Virus record (IMG/VR): IMGVR_UViG_3300030002_000005
Location: 1 to 64,000 of that record
Source of the DNA: a virus
Length of the DNA stretch: 64,000 nt
Reading direction: 5' to 3' (one strand)
The notes beneath the pieces are model-generated. The model made no database searches. It saw only the letters and a list, made by a program, of their open reading frames with translations, and was not told the origin of the DNA. Made by a program: the position numbers and the translations under genes. Numbering within the stretch: the first letter of the stretch is position 1; every line of letters starts with the position of its first letter. Below, one piece after another: positions 34,186-64,000 of the stretch.

Positions 34186-34548
34186 ATGAAAGAATTAATT
34201 AAATTAATAATCGAAAATCTGGATGACAGCTTATTAAAGCCTAAATACAGAAAAATGCCATTCAGAAACAAATATACAGGTCACTGTTATGTTGCAACTG
34301 AAACGTTATATCATTTATTAGATGATGACGAAAAGGAAATTTATTGTCCATCAATATTAAAAATAAATAACGATACTCACTGGTTTTTAAAAAATAAACT
34401 TGATGGCACAATCATAGATATTACAAAAAATCAATATGATTTTGATATCAATTATAATGAGTCAAGATATTCAGCATTTTTAACAAAAGCACCCTCAAAA
34501 AGATCACAAACGCTAATACATAGAATATATGAGGAATCTGGTTTATAA
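34186..34548 (+). CDS. Small protein with papain-like Cys-His-Asp order
   Basis: 120 residues from the ATG at 34186 (a GTG at 34177 would add three). Not recognised by name. The order Cys (GHCYVATE, near residue 32), His (NDTHWFL) and Asp (GTIIDIT) is the triad order of the transglutaminase/NlpC papain-like fold, so a cysteine hydrolase or its remnant is possible. This is inference from motif order. It starts downstream of the host-type promoter and overlaps the homing endonuclease gene by 20 nt, so the two are expressed together. AT-richer than the neighbouring capsid gene. Confidence 0.6.
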   Translation: MKELIKLIIENLDDSLLKPKYRKMPFRNKYTGHCYVATETLYHLLDDDEKEIYCPSILKINNDTHWFLKNKLDGTIIDITKNQYDFDINYNESRYSAFLTKAPSKRSQTLIHRIYEESGL

Positions 34549-36025
34549 TAAAACTATAATCCTATTTCTAAGCATCGATGATATGATCACGATGAACAGA
34601 GGGGATTTAAAAAAAATTAAAGAAAATTATTTAACATCTTATGAAAACTGTATAATTTATAATTATCATGATTTAAAACATCATAAAAACATCATAAAAG
34701 ATAAGATAAATAAGTTGAATTTTAGAGATCAAATAAGAATTAATGCTAGAGAATGTAAAATACGACACATTGAAAATACTGTAAAAAATGATTTTTTAAA
34801 TGTAAATCACATACAAGGAACTGATAAGTCTCAAATTTTTTACGGTGCTTATAAAAATGAGGAGCTGATTGCTGTCATGACTTTCGATAATAAATCAAAA
34901 ATGAACGGCAAACAAAATGATAATGAATTTGATTTGTCAAGATTTTCGATAAGTTTAGGACATATTGTCGTTGGAGTTTTTTCTAAGATTTTAAAACAAT
35001 TCATAAACGATTATAAGCCATTAAAAATAACATCATACGCCGATCTAAATTATACAAATAAAGATAAAAATATATATGATTCAAATAATTTTTATCTGAA
35101 TAAAGTTATTCAACCAGATTACAAGATTTTATTAAAAAGTTCAAATATTTTATATCATAAATTTACTTACGGCACTAAATTTTTTAGAAACAATGAAATT
35201 AGCGACATACAAAAAAGTATGATAAGGGATGATTCTAAAAGGGTGTGGAACTGTGGTAAATTACGATACGTTATCAGATTGAATGAGAATAATATGGTTA
35301 TTTTTGGTTATATATATAAAATAACTAATGCATTAAACGGTAAAATCTATATAGGTCAAACAACTCGAACACTTAATAAAAGAATATGGGAGTATAAAAG
35401 TGCATATAATAAAGGTGCATTTTATAATCAATATTTATTAAACTCATTTAATAAATATGGCTGGGATGCATTTGAATTCACCATGATTGATAGTGCCACA
35501 AATATAACCGAACTAAATGAAAAAGAAATCTATTACATTTCGAAATATAAATCAAATGATCGAAAATTTGGATATAACATAGAATCTGGCGGATGTAATT
35601 CAATTCCATCTACAGAAACTCTTGAGAAAATGTCAAGATCACATTTAGGAATTAAGCAAAGCACTGAATGGATAAATAAGCGAATATCTCTTGCTGGGTC
35701 TGATAACGCAAAAAAATACGGCAAAGCAAAGACAGATGATGAAAAAACAGAATTGAGCATAAATTCTCCAAAATTCTGGCTCGGTAAAGAAAGAGATCAG
35801 ACCACAAAGGATAAAATAAGTCAAACTAAATTAAAAAATGGTATATCTGATAAACAGAAGGAAGTATTATGTAAAACAGTTTACAAAAGAAATCTAAATA
35901 ACATCATAATAAATACATATGAGTCCACATTAATAGCTTCTAAGTCTGAGGGTGTTAATCAGTCTACAATATCAAGATGGTGTAAAGATAATAAAACAAT
36001 GAATGGCTTTAAATGGTCATATTGA
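34529..36025 (+). CDS. Homing endonuclease: N-terminal GNAT-like/Mom-like domain fused to GIY-YIG
   Basis: 498 residues. The N-terminal half contains GAYKNEELIAVMTF, DLSRFSIS and LKITSYADLNYTNK followed by KDSNNF-type residues, a module found next to endonuclease domains in mobile phage genes and resembling acetyltransferase-like Mom folds (family knowledge, low certainty). From residue 256 a GIY-YIG nuclease begins (GYIYKITN, then GKIYIGQTT). NUMOD-type repeats follow (WLGKERDQTTKDKISQTK) and a DNA-binding end (STISRWCKDNKTMNGFKWSY). Two normally separate mobile-gene modules are joined in one frame. It is free-standing between capsid and helicase genes, not in an intron. Confidence 0.75.
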   Translation: MRNLVYNKTIILFLSIDDMITMNRGDLKKIKENYLTSYENCIIYNYHDLKHHKNIIKDKINKLNFRDQIRINARECKIRHIENTVKNDFLNVNHIQGTDKSQIFYGAYKNEELIAVMTFDNKSKMNGKQNDNEFDLSRFSISLGHIVVGVFSKILKQFINDYKPLKITSYADLNYTNKDKNIYDSNNFYLNKVIQPDYKILLKSSNILYHKFTYGTKFFRNNEISDIQKSMIRDDSKRVWNCGKLRYVIRLNENNMVIFGYIYKITNALNGKIYIGQTTRTLNKRIWEYKSAYNKGAFYNQYLLNSFNKYGWDAFEFTMIDSATNITELNEKEIYYISKYKSNDRKFGYNIESGGCNSIPSTETLEKMSRSHLGIKQSTEWINKRISLAGSDNAKKYGKAKTDDEKTELSINSPKFWLGKERDQTTKDKISQTKLKNGISDKQKEVLCKTVYKRNLNNIIINTYESTLIASKSEGVNQSTISRWCKDNKTMNGFKWSY

Positions 36026-50427: not shown

Positions 50428-53196
50428 ATGACTGAATTTGTATTCACCTCGCCAGGTGTTAAATTTAAAGAACGTGACTTAACTTATGTTACACGTAATG
50501 TTGGAATCACAACGTTAGGACTTGCTGGGGAAACACTTAAAGGCCCAGCATTTGAGCCATTTTATATTAAAGACAGACCACAATTTTTGGATAAATTTGG
50601 AGCACAAGACACAAGCAAATATAGCAATGGAAACCTAAGATATCAATTGCCTTATGTTGCTAACGCATATTTACAGGAGTCTGATCAACTGTGGGTCACC
50701 AGAGTATTGGGTTTATCAGGATATGATGCAGGTTCGGCTTGGACTATTAGTCTTAATGCTGGCGTTGATCCATCTACAATTGTAAGTGGCACAACCAGTG
50801 ATGGTAGTCGTGAATTCACTGATAATACTTTCTTTGGTACACCTGTTTATACTGTTGGTCAAGAAGGTGCTGCTTTTAGTGGTTTTATTAAAAATGAAGA
50901 TGGCGTTAGTTTTATTGGAAGTTATTACACATTTACAGTAACATCAATTTCTGGTGGTACTGGAAATGTTGACTACGTAGAGACTCCGTTAACAGGTACG
51001 CCTTATGTTCAATATCAGGATATGGTATTAGCTGTATTGAGAAGCAAAGCAACTGTAACTGACAATGTTGATGCTCCTTCCGTAACGACATTCACTGTTA
51101 ATGCTATTGATTTTGATTCAAATTTAACAAATGATGGCACTGGTGATCTTTTCAGAGAATTTACCTTATATGTTTCGTTATCAGATGGCGGAACTGCTAC
51201 ATACAATGTATCAATGAATCCAAATGCTAGTAATTTTATAGCTAATGTATTAGGCACTACTCCAACAGCCAAACAGTCGCATATTTGGGTTGAAGCGGTT
51301 TATCCTGATCTAATTAGTAAACTCGACGTTGATGGCGACGCATTTACGCCAGAAACAATGCTATCAGGTATTGCTTCATATGCTTTCGGTATTTCCAATA
51401 ACATTATTAAAAATACCGACGGTATTTTTGTTAATCGTAAGGAAAAATTCAAAACACCTGAAACACCTTGGGTTGTATCTCAGCTAAAAGGTAATATTGT
51501 TGACAGGTTATTTAAATTTGTATCAATTTCTGACGGTGATGATGCCAACCAAGAAATCAAGGTGAGTATCGTTAATATTAATCCTGAAACGCTTGAATTT
51601 GACGTAATTATCAGATCATTTTATGATACTGACGCTAATATGAACATTTTGGAATCATTCACAAGATGCTCTCTAATTCAGTCAAAAACAAATTTTATCG
51701 GACAACGAATTGGTACTACCGACGATAACTATGAACTGTTAAGTAAATATGTTATGGTTGAGCTAGCTGCAGATATTAAACCAGAATCATTTCCAGCAGG
51801 TTTTGAAGGATATTGGTTTAACACATTTAAAACAGCTGTAACGCCAAAGATTTTCTACAAAACAAGCTACGCTTATACAGATAAAATTGCGAAAACCTCT
51901 TTAGGTATTTCAAATACTGCATATAATACAGCTAATTCAGTTGGTATAGGTGTTAATCAAAATTTCTTCAACTATAATGGCTGGAAGAATAGCGAAAGCA
52001 ATCCTACTGGATTTACAAAAACAAAGGGCTTTCATATGGACGTGGACGCATCAATCGTACTTGCAGATAATCTTGACCCACTTGAATTTGAAGTTGGTAT
52101 CAGTAGCTTTAAATCTATTCAGGACGTTTTATTACCATCAAATGCTTATAATTCTATTAAAACTAGAAAATTCACTATAGCATTTTCTGGCGGATTCGAC
52201 GGATGGGATATCAATAGAACAAACAGAACTCACACCGACCTTTATCGTGAAGGTGGTATCTATGACGGAGTTGGCGCAGGTGTAACGCCAGCTAATGACT
52301 ATCAGGCATGGGAAACTGCTATAAACACTTTCTCAAATCCTGAAAAGATTACCATCAATTTATTTGCGACGCCAGCAATTAACTGGTCAGACAATACTAC
52401 TTTGGTAACAAAGACAATTGAAATGATCGAAGAACAAAGAACTGATAGCTTATATATTATTGATGCACCAAATATCGACATAGCAATGTCAATAGGTGAT
52501 AATAATAATACTGATGTGGTTGCTTCAAACGATATTGTTGACTTGTTAAACAGCACAGATATTGACAGTAGCTACGCTTGTACTTATTTTCCTTTCATTC
52601 AGGTTAAAGACACTCAGAACAATGTGAATGTTTATATACCGCCCACAGGCGAGGTTGCTAAAGCAATTGCTTATACTGATACGAAGAAATTCCCTTGGTA
52701 TGCACCTGCTGGTCTTGAACGTGGTGTAACCGATGCAAGAAGATCAAAATATAAATTGAGTCAGGAAGCACGTGACGTTTTATACAAAGGTAGAATTAAC
52801 CCAATGGTTGACTTTTCAAACACTGGAACAGCTATATTTGGTCAGAAAACCTTACAAGTTAGAGAAAGCGCACTTGATAGAATTAACGTAAGAAGATTGT
52901 TACTTCAAATCAAGGTATTGATTTCTAATATCGCAATGAGATTGATTTTCGAACAAAATGATCAAGCAACAATTGACCAGTTCAAACAAAAAACTAATCC
53001 TATCCTTGACGGTATTAAGAGAGACAGAGGCTTGCTTGAATTCAAGGTTGTTATGGATGATACGATCAACACGCCAGAAACCTTAGACAGAAACGAATTA
53101 TACGGTGAAATTTATCTTAAACCGACTCGTTCACTAGAAAAGATTGGTATCGGTTTTACCATTGCACCATCTGGAGCATCATTTTCAGAAATTTAA
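50428..53196 (+). CDS. Tail sheath protein (gp18-like)
   Basis: 922 residues, longer than T4 gp18 (659). The N-terminal FVFTSPGVKFKERD, the conserved FPWYAPAGLERG (about residue 755), RGVTDARRSKYKLS, INPMVDFSNTGTAIFGQKTL and the C-terminal GEIYLKPTRSLEKIGIGFT are sheath signatures. The extra length is in the middle (residues about 100-480), where beta-rich insertions are expected to be surface exposed on the contracted or extended tail. Energetic contractile component of the tail; transcribed as its own unit. Confidence 0.95.
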   Translation: MTEFVFTSPGVKFKERDLTYVTRNVGITTLGLAGETLKGPAFEPFYIKDRPQFLDKFGAQDTSKYSNGNLRYQLPYVANAYLQESDQLWVTRVLGLSGYDAGSAWTISLNAGVDPSTIVSGTTSDGSREFTDNTFFGTPVYTVGQEGAAFSGFIKNEDGVSFIGSYYTFTVTSISGGTGNVDYVETPLTGTPYVQYQDMVLAVLRSKATVTDNVDAPSVTTFTVNAIDFDSNLTNDGTGDLFREFTLYVSLSDGGTATYNVSMNPNASNFIANVLGTTPTAKQSHIWVEAVYPDLISKLDVDGDAFTPETMLSGIASYAFGISNNIIKNTDGIFVNRKEKFKTPETPWVVSQLKGNIVDRLFKFVSISDGDDANQEIKVSIVNINPETLEFDVIIRSFYDTDANMNILESFTRCSLIQSKTNFIGQRIGTTDDNYELLSKYVMVELAADIKPESFPAGFEGYWFNTFKTAVTPKIFYKTSYAYTDKIAKTSLGISNTAYNTANSVGIGVNQNFFNYNGWKNSESNPTGFTKTKGFHMDVDASIVLADNLDPLEFEVGISSFKSIQDVLLPSNAYNSIKTRKFTIAFSGGFDGWDINRTNRTHTDLYREGGIYDGVGAGVTPANDYQAWETAINTFSNPEKITINLFATPAINWSDNTTLVTKTIEMIEEQRTDSLYIIDAPNIDIAMSIGDNNNTDVVASNDIVDLLNSTDIDSSYACTYFPFIQVKDTQNNVNVYIPPTGEVAKAIAYTDTKKFPWYAPAGLERGVTDARRSKYKLSQEARDVLYKGRINPMVDFSNTGTAIFGQKTLQVRESALDRINVRRLLLQIKVLISNIAMRLIFEQNDQATIDQFKQKTNPILDGIKRDRGLLEFKVVMDDTINTPETLDRNELYGEIYLKPTRSLEKIGIGFTIAPSGASFSEI

Positions 53197-61287: not shown

Positions 61288-61323
61288 ATCAAAATAATAA
61301 AATATTATAAATATTTATAGAAA

Positions 61324-62193
61324 ATGGCAAAGGAAACAGGAGCACAAGCAATCAAGAATGCAATACAAGGATACAATAAAAATGCTGGGGCACAGAGCAC
61401 TGGCGTATCATCCATGACAACAGGCTATAATGACGTCATGAGCAAAGAAACTGACCCTGACCTAATTACGGTATGTGAGATAGTTCAGTTACCATCAAAA
61501 GGTTTATTCTATGAAAATCATTTATCGGAAATTAGTATTGAATACATGACTTCTAAAGACGAAGACCTTTTAACAACGCCATCGTTAATTGAAAATGGTA
61601 CTGTTTTAGACTTATTGTTAAAAAAGAAAGTCAAAACGCCAAATGTAAACACGTTCGATCTATTGCAAGGTGATAGAAATGCTTTAATATTATTTTTAAG
61701 AACTACATCATATGGCGCAGATTATTCAGTTGTCGCCACAGACCCTAGAAATGGTCAAGCATTTAAAACAGTTGTTAATTTACTTAACCTGACATATAAG
61801 GAAGTAAAAGAAATACCAGACGCTAATGGTCATTTTACAGTGTTTATTCCTATGAGAAAAAAGAATGTTGTTTTCAGAATATTAACATATGGTGAAGACG
61901 ATAACATTTCTAAAAAAGCTGAGGCTATTAAATTGGCGTATAGCAAAACATATAGCTCATACAGCACCATTAGGCTTAAAGCAAGTATTATCTCAATTGA
62001 AGGGAATACCGATCGTGGATACATTGATAAATTTGTTGATGCGATGCCTGCCTTAGATGCTTTCACAATTCGTAAAAAAATTGTTGAAGTATCTCCAGAT
62101 GTTGACCTTAGCTATACATTTACCACTGACGATGGATTTGAATTTAAGTCCAATTTAACGCTCGGTATAGATTTTTTTTTCCCAAACACCTAG
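61324..62193 (+). CDS. Baseplate/tail-assembly protein (gp26-like), with probable -1 frameshift extension
   Basis: 289 residues in the zero frame. The phrases VCEIVQLPSKGLFYENHLSEISIEYMTSKDEDLL (about 50-83), LLQGDRNALILFLRTTSYG (about 117-135) and DLLLKKKVKTPN belong to the T4 baseplate gp26 family (Pfam T4_baseplate). The zero-frame stop (TAG 62191-62193) comes soon after a slippery T9 run; a -1 slip would give a 348-residue fusion with the ORF ending at 62369. Directly before the tape measure gene, where tail assembly chaperones with frameshifts usually lie. Confidence 0.88.
   Translation: MAKETGAQAIKNAIQGYNKNAGAQSTGVSSMTTGYNDVMSKETDPDLITVCEIVQLPSKGLFYENHLSEISIEYMTSKDEDLLTTPSLIENGTVLDLLLKKKVKTPNVNTFDLLQGDRNALILFLRTTSYGADYSVVATDPRNGQAFKTVVNLLNLTYKEVKEIPDANGHFTVFIPMRKKNVVFRILTYGEDDNISKKAEAIKLAYSKTYSSYSTIRLKASIISIEGNTDRGYIDKFVDAMPALDAFTIRKKIVEVSPDVDLSYTFTTDDGFEFKSNLTLGIDFFFPNT
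62172..62180 (+). promoter_or_regulatory. Slippery T9 run (candidate -1 programmed frameshift)
   Basis: The zero-frame codons GAT TTT TTT TTC contain T TTT TTT. Slipping back one base joins the gp26-like frame to an open frame running to 62369. Transcriptional slippage on the T9 run would have the same effect. Confidence 0.65.
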
Positions 62194-62210
62194 CAGGTGA
62201 TTATAAAAAA

Positions 62211-62369
62211 ATGGTAAATGACGAAATCTACATTCTAACTAAACATGGCAGGTTTCAAGCTGATTATGTGGAAGGTATACCAGTTTACAAAAGGAGATAT
62301 TTCTTACATTTAATGCAAAAAGAAAACGAGGAAATGGAAAAGCAGCAAGAAGCTGCTAGACATAGATAA
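62211..62369 (+). CDS. gp51-like extension / small chaperone reading frame
   Basis: 52 codons from the ATG at 62211; the frame is open upstream to the T9 run, so it can also be the C-terminal 63 residues of a frameshift product. It contains MVNDEIYILTKHGRFQADYV and PVYKRRYFLHLMQKE. The style of a short charged/aromatic helical unit recalls T4 gp51 and the T part of lambda GT. Alternatively it is a stand-alone protein. A transcription terminator follows (62371-62406). Confidence 0.65.
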   Translation: MVNDEIYILTKHGRFQADYVEGIPVYKRRYFLHLMQKENEEMEKQQEAARHR

Positions 62370-62370
62370 A

Positions 62371-62406
62371 AAAAGGGAACTAAGTTATTATAATTTAGTT
62401 CCTTTT
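62371..62406 (+). terminator. Terminator before the tape measure gene
   Basis: GGAACTAA/TTAGTTCC stem (extended by A:T and G:U pairs) with A4 and T4 flanks. Separates the chaperone unit from the tape measure promoter, which starts within its T-run. Confidence 0.7.
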
Positions 62407-62415
62407 GTATTTATA
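62406..62415 (+). promoter_or_regulatory. Late promoter motif TGTATTTATA (tape measure)
   Basis: One mismatch, 17 nt before the ATG at 62433. Confidence 0.5.
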
Positions 62416-62432
62416 TGAAATAGTAATGAATT

Positions 62433-64000
62433 ATGGCAGCACCAACACAGTCGGCACAAGCACAAGCAGCGGCAGCAGCTAGAGCACAGTTAGCAACCCA
62501 GCAAAAACAGGCTGTAAAAGATGCTAAACAAGCTCTTGATCTACAAAATCAAGACTTAGCATTGCTGCAAAATGAATTAAGTCTGCTTAATGGTATATTT
62601 AATAGTAGGGATCGAAACGCAAAACAAGCTGAAATTGCTCAAAAAGCACAAGATGCTAGAAATGCTGCTTTAGATCTTGAGTTAAAAAAACTTGATGCTA
62701 TTACTAATAAAAGCAGTGTTGCATATACCAATCAATTAAAAAAAGTACAAAGTTTAAAAGAAGAAAATAAGGAACAAGATGCTTTAATAGAAAAGCAGAA
62801 GAAAAGTAATGAATTATACGAAGCCCGTAAAAAGCTTCTCATAGATAACACTAAACTTGAAGCAGCTTGGATACAAGGCTTGATGCAGTCAGATAAGATC
62901 ATTAGACAAACCACATTAAACCTCGGCATGTCTGGTTTAAAGGCTGATATGATTAGAACTTCTTTCGAAAACTCTGCAATGTCTGTTGCCGAAATGGGTG
63001 GCGGATTGGAGGACTTACAGTCCGTAATGCAAGGATTTGCTGATGAAACAGGACGTTCCAGAGTAATGTCTGAAAAGATGCTCGTTAATATCGTTGCAAT
63101 AGGTAAAGGAACTGGTTTAGGTGTTGACAATGCCACAAAAATGGCTTCACAGTTTGAGCTAATGGGTATTGATGCACAAAAAACATATGAAATGACTGAT
63201 GAATTCGTTCATTCAAGTGAGAAATATGGTATCAACACAACAAAAGCATTAAAAAACGTATCAGATAATTTTAAGAAATTAAACCTATATAATTTTAAAG
63301 GTGGTGTAAAAGGTATGATGGAAATGTCAGCCTATGCTACAAAAATGAATATCGATTTTAGTCAGGCTTTTAATGCAATTGACACAGCAAAAACTTTGGA
63401 AGGTGCTATTGAACTAGCATCGAATCTACAGATTATGGGTGGCGAATTTGCTAAATCTGATCCTTTTGAAATGTTATTCCTTTCTCGTAATGATCCTGCA
63501 AAATTCACAGAAAAGATTAATGATATGACTAAAGGCGTTGTAACATTTCAAAAACAAGCTGATGGAACATTTACAAAATTTATATCGCCTGCTGATAGAG
63601 ATCGTATGGCATCTGTTGAGAAATCATTAGGCTTACAAAATGGCGAATTAACACAGCAGGCTCTTAGAATGGCTGATATCATGAAAATGCGTAAGAACAT
63701 GATTGGTTCAGGATTATCTAAAGATGATAAATCAGCTATTGAAGGTGCTGCCATATTTAATTCAAAAACTGGACAATTTCAGGTTATGGTTGGGACAACT
63801 GCTAAAAATATAGCAAATTTAACCGAAAGTGAAGCAAATGCGTTCATACAACAGAAAGCAGCTTTGGAGCAAAGAGCCAAAGATGCTTTAACATTCGAAG
63901 AAGCATTACAAGCTACATTGGCTTCCTTTAAAACATTACTATTACCAATGTTAAGAGGTGTTAATGAGGTAATGAAAATAGTTATACCTGTTTTTCAAGA
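62433..64000 (+). CDS. Tape measure protein (N-terminal part, runs off the window)
   Basis: At least 522 codons; the C-terminus is outside. Residues 1-30 are Ala/Gln-rich, then a long coiled-coil (QAVKDAKQALDLQNQDLALLQNEL through EENKEQDALIEKQKKSNEL). From about residue 140 it becomes a helical and glycine-containing domain (MSVAEMGGGLEDLQSVMQGFADETG) typical of tape measure N-terminal regions. Length, coiled coil and place after the tail chaperone are the evidence. It sets tail length and is ejected with DNA (family knowledge). Confidence 0.85.
   Translation, partial: MAAPTQSAQAQAAAAARAQLATQQKQAVKDAKQALDLQNQDLALLQNELSLLNGIFNSRDRNAKQAEIAQKAQDARNAALDLELKKLDAITNKSSVAYTNQLKKVQSLKEENKEQDALIEKQKKSNELYEARKKLLIDNTKLEAAWIQGLMQSDKIIRQTTLNLGMSGLKADMIRTSFENSAMSVAEMGGGLEDLQSVMQGFADETGRSRVMSEKMLVNIVAIGKGTGLGVDNATKMASQFELMGIDAQKTYEMTDEFVHSSEKYGINTTKALKNVSDNFKKLNLYNFKGGVKGMMEMSAYATKMNIDFSQAFNAIDTAKTLEGAIELASNLQIMGGEFAKSDPFEMLFLSRNDPAKFTEKINDMTKGVVTFQKQADGTFTKFISPADRDRMASVEKSLGLQNGELTQQALRMADIMKMRKNMIGSGLSKDDKSAIEGAAIFNSKTGQFQVMVGTTAKNIANLTESEANAFIQQKAALEQRAKDALTFEEALQATLASFKTLLLPMLRGVNEVMKIVIPVFQ

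Follow-up and report, generated by a model that had tools for sequence, protein, structure and literature searches.

A probable T4-type tail assembly chaperone gene with a conserved candidate -1 frameshift site, and a sister lineage carrying the homologous extension in the +1 frame

In the DNA of an uncultivated T4-like phage, a gene resembling T4 gene 26 ends just past a run of nine thymines, a second reading frame stays open beyond its stop codon, and a tape measure gene follows. This raises the question of how the second frame is expressed, and of how its product relates to the T4 proteins gp26 and gp51. The stretch, hereafter the window, comprises the first 64,000 bases of IMG/VR virus record IMGVR_UViG_3300030002_000005, which is 82,065 bases in all. 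It encodes a terminase, portal, protease, major head protein and sheath, each matching a phage head or tail family. The closest counterparts of the major head protein, at ~40% identity, belong to Microcystis phage Mel-JY01 and Flavobacterium phage immuto. An initial annotation proposed that a gp26-type tail chaperone, encoded upstream of the tape measure gene, undergoes a -1 programmed frameshift in the fashion of lambda G/GT or P2 E/E', and the site, the frame and their conservation support this proposal. Judged from sequence, the locus very probably yields two forms of a T4-type tail assembly chaperone, TAC-N and TAC-NC, by way of -1 programmed frameshifting (Table 1).

Table 1. Features of the chaperone locus, in positions of the window.
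Feature	Position	Strand	Remarks
TATAAATA, candidate late promoter	61306..61313	+	18 nt ahead of the TAC-N start
TAC-N, zero-frame gp26-type tail assembly chaperone, 289 aa	61324..62193	+	PF12322, phrog_150, BFVD
Slippery site T9C	62172..62181	+	In-frame T_TTT_TTT (62172-62178) and T_TTT_TTC (62175-62181)
-1-frame C-terminal domain, 62 residues then TAA (62367-62369)	62181..62369	+	With TAC-N, the 348-aa TAC-NC
Downstream RNA element	62188..62253	+	Helix 62188-62198/62243-62253; inner helix 62212-62220/62233-62241
Zero-frame stop TAG	62191..62193	+	TAG or TAA kept shortly after the slip site in relatives
ATG of the candidate separate 52-aa ORF	62211..62213	+	ATG in 44/48 relatives; others TTG, GTT, ATA, TTA
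Terminator-like hairpin	62372..62406	+	16-bp stem, loop of 3; between the extension and the tape measure gene
Tail tape measure gene	62433..64000, on to 65006 of the record	+	857 aa; phrog_167

The zero-frame ORF is a member of PF12322 (T4_baseplate), scoring 25.3 bits, above the curated cut-off of 24.5. It also matched phrog_150 ('baseplate hub') with an E value of 1e-5, and a BFVD fold search matched T4-like baseplate hub proteins with E values down to 9e-24. The predicted model of its N-domain (pLDDT 86) weakly resembles the HK97 tail assembly chaperone gp14 (2OB9), which was the third match (E 1.6, prob 0.47, TM 0.49 by target). As first described, the gene stops at 62193 and carries a T9 slippery run at 62172-62180, its last codons being GAT TTT TTT TTC CCA AAC ACC TAG. 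These place two X_XXY_YYZ heptamers in frame, the arrangement looked for in a programmed -1 frameshift, and a -1 slip on either one gives the identical fusion protein. The slip site of lambda G/GT is GGGAAAG, which differs from the T9 found here. Counting both strands, the window has no other stretch of nine T or nine A, although 8.3 +/- 3.7 are expected from shuffled sequence, and therefore such runs are avoided elsewhere in the window. The Val-Gly codons that precede the run revealed no constraint on codon choice of the kind expected for an upstream Shine-Dalgarno-like stimulator. Downstream, the ORF directly 3' of the chaperone gene matches phrog_167 ('tail length tape measure protein') with an E value of 2.3e-4, which bears out the initial placement of the chaperone gene immediately 5' of a tape measure gene, as in G/GT-type loci.

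The -1 frame is indeed open from the T run to 62369; the size and the end first given for the extension, however, need amending. Rather than 63 extra residues, 62 are read in the new frame and the long form exceeds the short form by 59 (348 versus 289 aa), and the extension does not end in PVYKRRYFLHLM but continues to ...QKENEEMEKQQEAARHR. It is predicted to fold into a compact three-helix domain (pLDDT 92). A PDB fold search with the extension gave no match, and no member was found among named phage records. The extensions of loci L167 (3857-4081), L204 and L067 weakly match PF20546 (DUF6760), with a best E value of 0.0028, below the cut-off; DUF6760 may be a chaperone C-terminal domain.

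A scan of IMG/VR yielded 78 relatives, 73 of which reach the slip region, and 48 representatives were used for codon and RNA counts. Because these sequences are related, the counts are not independent trials and overstate the statistics. The T run, the frame and the extension, which the initial annotation had suggested comparing across related genomes, are kept in all 73: each has TTT TTT at both slip codons, the same codons in frame, a stop a few codons on, and an open -1 frame with a conserved extension, two of these extensions running off the contig end. Like G/GT-type genes, all 73 have the shift site near the 3' end together with an open second frame. At the slip codons, GAT TTT TTT TTC occurs in 66 relatives, GAC TTT TTT TTC in four and GAT TTT TTT TCY in three. 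Among the 48 representatives GAT is found in 47, TTT at both slip codons in 48 and TTC in 47; the TTT share of Phe codons elsewhere in these genes is 80%. Where one base of the run has changed (GAC_TTT_TTT_TTC or GAT_TTT_TTT_TCY), an in-frame heptamer is still present. The distant relative LR756511 (L084) reads GGT_TTT_TTC, which retains T_TTT_TTC on a T6 only, and also carries a -1 extension.

A candidate RNA element starts ~7 nt past T_TTT_TTC. The 80 nt of downstream RNA fold more stably than their shuffles, the mean z in the 48 sequences being -1.90, versus ~0 to -0.5 in control windows. When a two-stem structure was laid over the alignment, 86% of cells were paired, compared with 28-41% when the structure was slid, and 38 double-change cells were counted versus 19.6 in shuffles (0/500). 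The covarying changes are mostly at silent positions, for example columns 26/77, 20/83 and 47/68 of alignment A1, in which column 1 is position 62170. In the window itself the outer stem is only partly formed, with two mismatches, and RNAalifold alone recovers the inner stem only; the element is therefore supported for the clade and no more than suggested for the present genome. An Rfam search found no family, with one chance miRNA match.

From these features we infer that ribosomes slip at this site, at a rate such that most would terminate at the TAG at 62191 to give the 289-aa TAC-N, while a minority would move back one base on T_TTT_TTT or T_TTT_TTC to give the 348-aa TAC-NC. The RNA stem ~7 nt downstream probably aids slippage. 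In lambda, many short chaperones and few long ones attach to the tape measure protein, tube subunits being recruited by the C-terminal domain (reviewed in PMC5009743). By analogy with lambda G/GT, we propose that the products act as chaperones, many TAC-N and few TAC-NC coating the tape measure protein of the adjacent gene and the three-helix C-terminal domain of TAC-NC recruiting tail tube subunits. The likeness to G/GT lies in a short form and a rare -1 long form, encoded by a gene directly ahead of the tape measure gene, although the lambda tail is non-contractile, unlike that of the present case. P2 E/E' is similar in being a -1 frameshifted chaperone of a contractile tail. So is the TAC locus of Vandenendeviridae and Andersonviridae, where the invariant motif GTTTTT (PMC12846349) is shorter than the T8-T9 of the present lineage.

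The same two products could arise if RNA polymerase, and not the ribosome, slipped on the T run, adding or dropping bases such that mixed mRNAs yield the long form with no ribosomal shift. A T9 falls in the length range of known bacterial RNA polymerase slippage, and the window has no second run of this kind. However, several relatives have only T8, interrupted 5' in GAC_TTT_TTT_TTC and 3' in GAT_TTT_TTT_TCY, and the run is down to T6 in the distant L084; what survives in every variant is a heptamer phased to the zero frame. The covarying stem at the usual spacer also fits ribosomal shifting, and we therefore regard polymerase slippage as unlikely.

We consider it quite improbable that the locus is two separate genes, with the 52-aa protein translated alone from ATG 62211 and no frameshift. 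An AGGTGA does lie 10 nt 5' of this ATG. Further, in two distant relatives (L268 and L272, near 2700 in both) the C-domain is apparently an ORF of its own, with an ATG a few bases past the chaperone stop, additional residues at the N-terminus and no apparent slip site, which counts against the frameshift reading. Against separate translation, the -1-frame codons 5' of ATG 62211 are conserved across the 48 representatives, with silent changes at wobble positions that begin right after the zero-frame stop, and in some relatives the ATG is replaced by a codon that is no start (ATA, TTA, GTT), so the selected product spans the slip site. In addition, the slip codons are fixed, and T4 gp51 is a continuous protein comprising the N-domain and a further C-terminal stretch. 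ATG 62211 is thus probably just an internal Met codon, and initiation of its own there may occur as a side product. Homopolymers are error-prone, but that a miscounted one has split a single gene here is next to inconceivable, and assembly error is excluded, because many independent contigs share the arrangement, with the identical relation of stop and frame in 73 contigs from many samples and at protein identities down to ~48%.

How, then, does the frameshifted gene correspond to the T4 proteins? The initial annotation took gp26 and gp51 for the two halves of a chaperone, and this idea is corrected here. PF12322 is matched by T4 gp26 (208 aa) as well as by T4 gp51 (249 aa), with E values of 8.8e-64 and 3.9e-52, and both proteins match phrog_150 along their N-domains; they are therefore paralogues. 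Their genes are separate in T4, as the annotation had it, and lie on opposite strands. The PF12322 match of gp51 covers residues 1-201, so that the N-domain is included, and is followed by ~45 further C-terminal residues. The counterpart of gp26 is the short, zero-frame product, and that of gp51 is probably the whole frameshift product, the long form. Equating the extension, or the 52-aa ORF, with gp51 was rejected, since gp51 contains the N-domain; because gp51 probably matches the entire frameshift product, the 52-aa ORF would be the C-terminal domain. With the fusion, the phrog_150 match runs on to position 281 (of 282) and scores 4.8 bits more than with TAC-N alone, and the true extension scored higher than a reversed one in 3 of 4 relatives. 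When the extension was aligned directly to the ~45 C-terminal residues of T4 gp51 by hhalign, the E value was 0.03, which is too weak alone.

Vladimirov, Gautam and Davidson are reported to have proposed in 2022 that T4 26 and 51 stand for the short and the long form (cited in PMC10885494 and PMC12846349), and poly-T -1 frameshift signals are reported in TAC-N genes of T4-like phages (PMC12846349). Poly-T frameshifts in T4-like chaperones and the 26/51 relation were thus already published in 2022, and the RNA stem and the comparison of -1 and +1 frames are what the present work contributes. The locus has the PF12322 family in common with T4-like TAC-N/TAC-NC, and likewise the poly-T -1 signals. 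In T4 itself the short (26) and the long (51) form have a gene each, unlike the single, very probably frameshifted gene described here. In large T4-like phages this gene is routinely split into a 'baseplate hub subunit' and a small hypothetical protein, an annotation that our reading mends.

The chaperones of Flavobacterium phage immuto and Microcystis phage Mel-JY01 are homologous to the present one in the N-domain (34-37% identity), whereas at YTT_TGG their C-domain occupies the +1 (or -2) frame, in contrast to the -1 frame at T9 here. Relatives of these two proteins were found at 160 loci, 84 of them distinct. Throughout this sister lineage (L080-L083, L087-L246) the chaperone ends in YTT_TGG_CCT, rarely YTT_TAC_CCT, and 81 of the 84 distinct loci have their longest extension in the +1 frame, which is also open in the other three. 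The sister +1 extension aligned with the present -1 extension in hhalign with a probability of 97% and an E value of 4e-11, compared with E 0.16 for a reversed control. The variant TTT_CTT_TGG appears to fit +1 slippage at CTT better than -2. In a tree of N-domains the -1 and +1 groups are almost cleanly split, the main exception being the long-branched pair L083/L084; the branches of the T4 proteins were too long for placement in this tree. The sister C-domain is annotated as a separate hypothetical protein in the two annotated public records.

The freshest point of this work is that the homologous extension is in the -1 frame here and in the +1 frame at YTT_TGG in the sister lineage. On balance, we favor the view that one orthologous chaperone gene changed its recoding direction, reaching the C-domain by -1 at T8-T9 here, by +1 at YTT_TGG in the large sister lineage, through a duplicated gene in T4 and through an apparently separate ORF in a few relatives, such that the two-product output was kept while the mechanism changed. 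These loci (-1, +1, duplicated and separate) provide a large natural series for studying how recoding mechanisms are replaced with the product ratio staying useful.

Several minor features of the window accompany the locus. Copies of TATAAATA number 38 versus 16.4 expected; the motif is identical to the T4 late-promoter consensus and is a candidate promoter. The ORF at 50428-53196 encodes a long tail sheath protein of 922 aa, and a homing-endonuclease-like ORF at 34529-36025 comes shortly after the major head protein gene. Hairpins resembling the one at 62372-62406 follow the extension in several, not most, relatives. A further motif, GTATTTATA, occurs at 62406-62415 and precedes 12 of 45 ORFs by no more than 60 nt. 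It stands directly ahead of the tape measure gene in most relatives and is possibly a late promoter of the present lineage.
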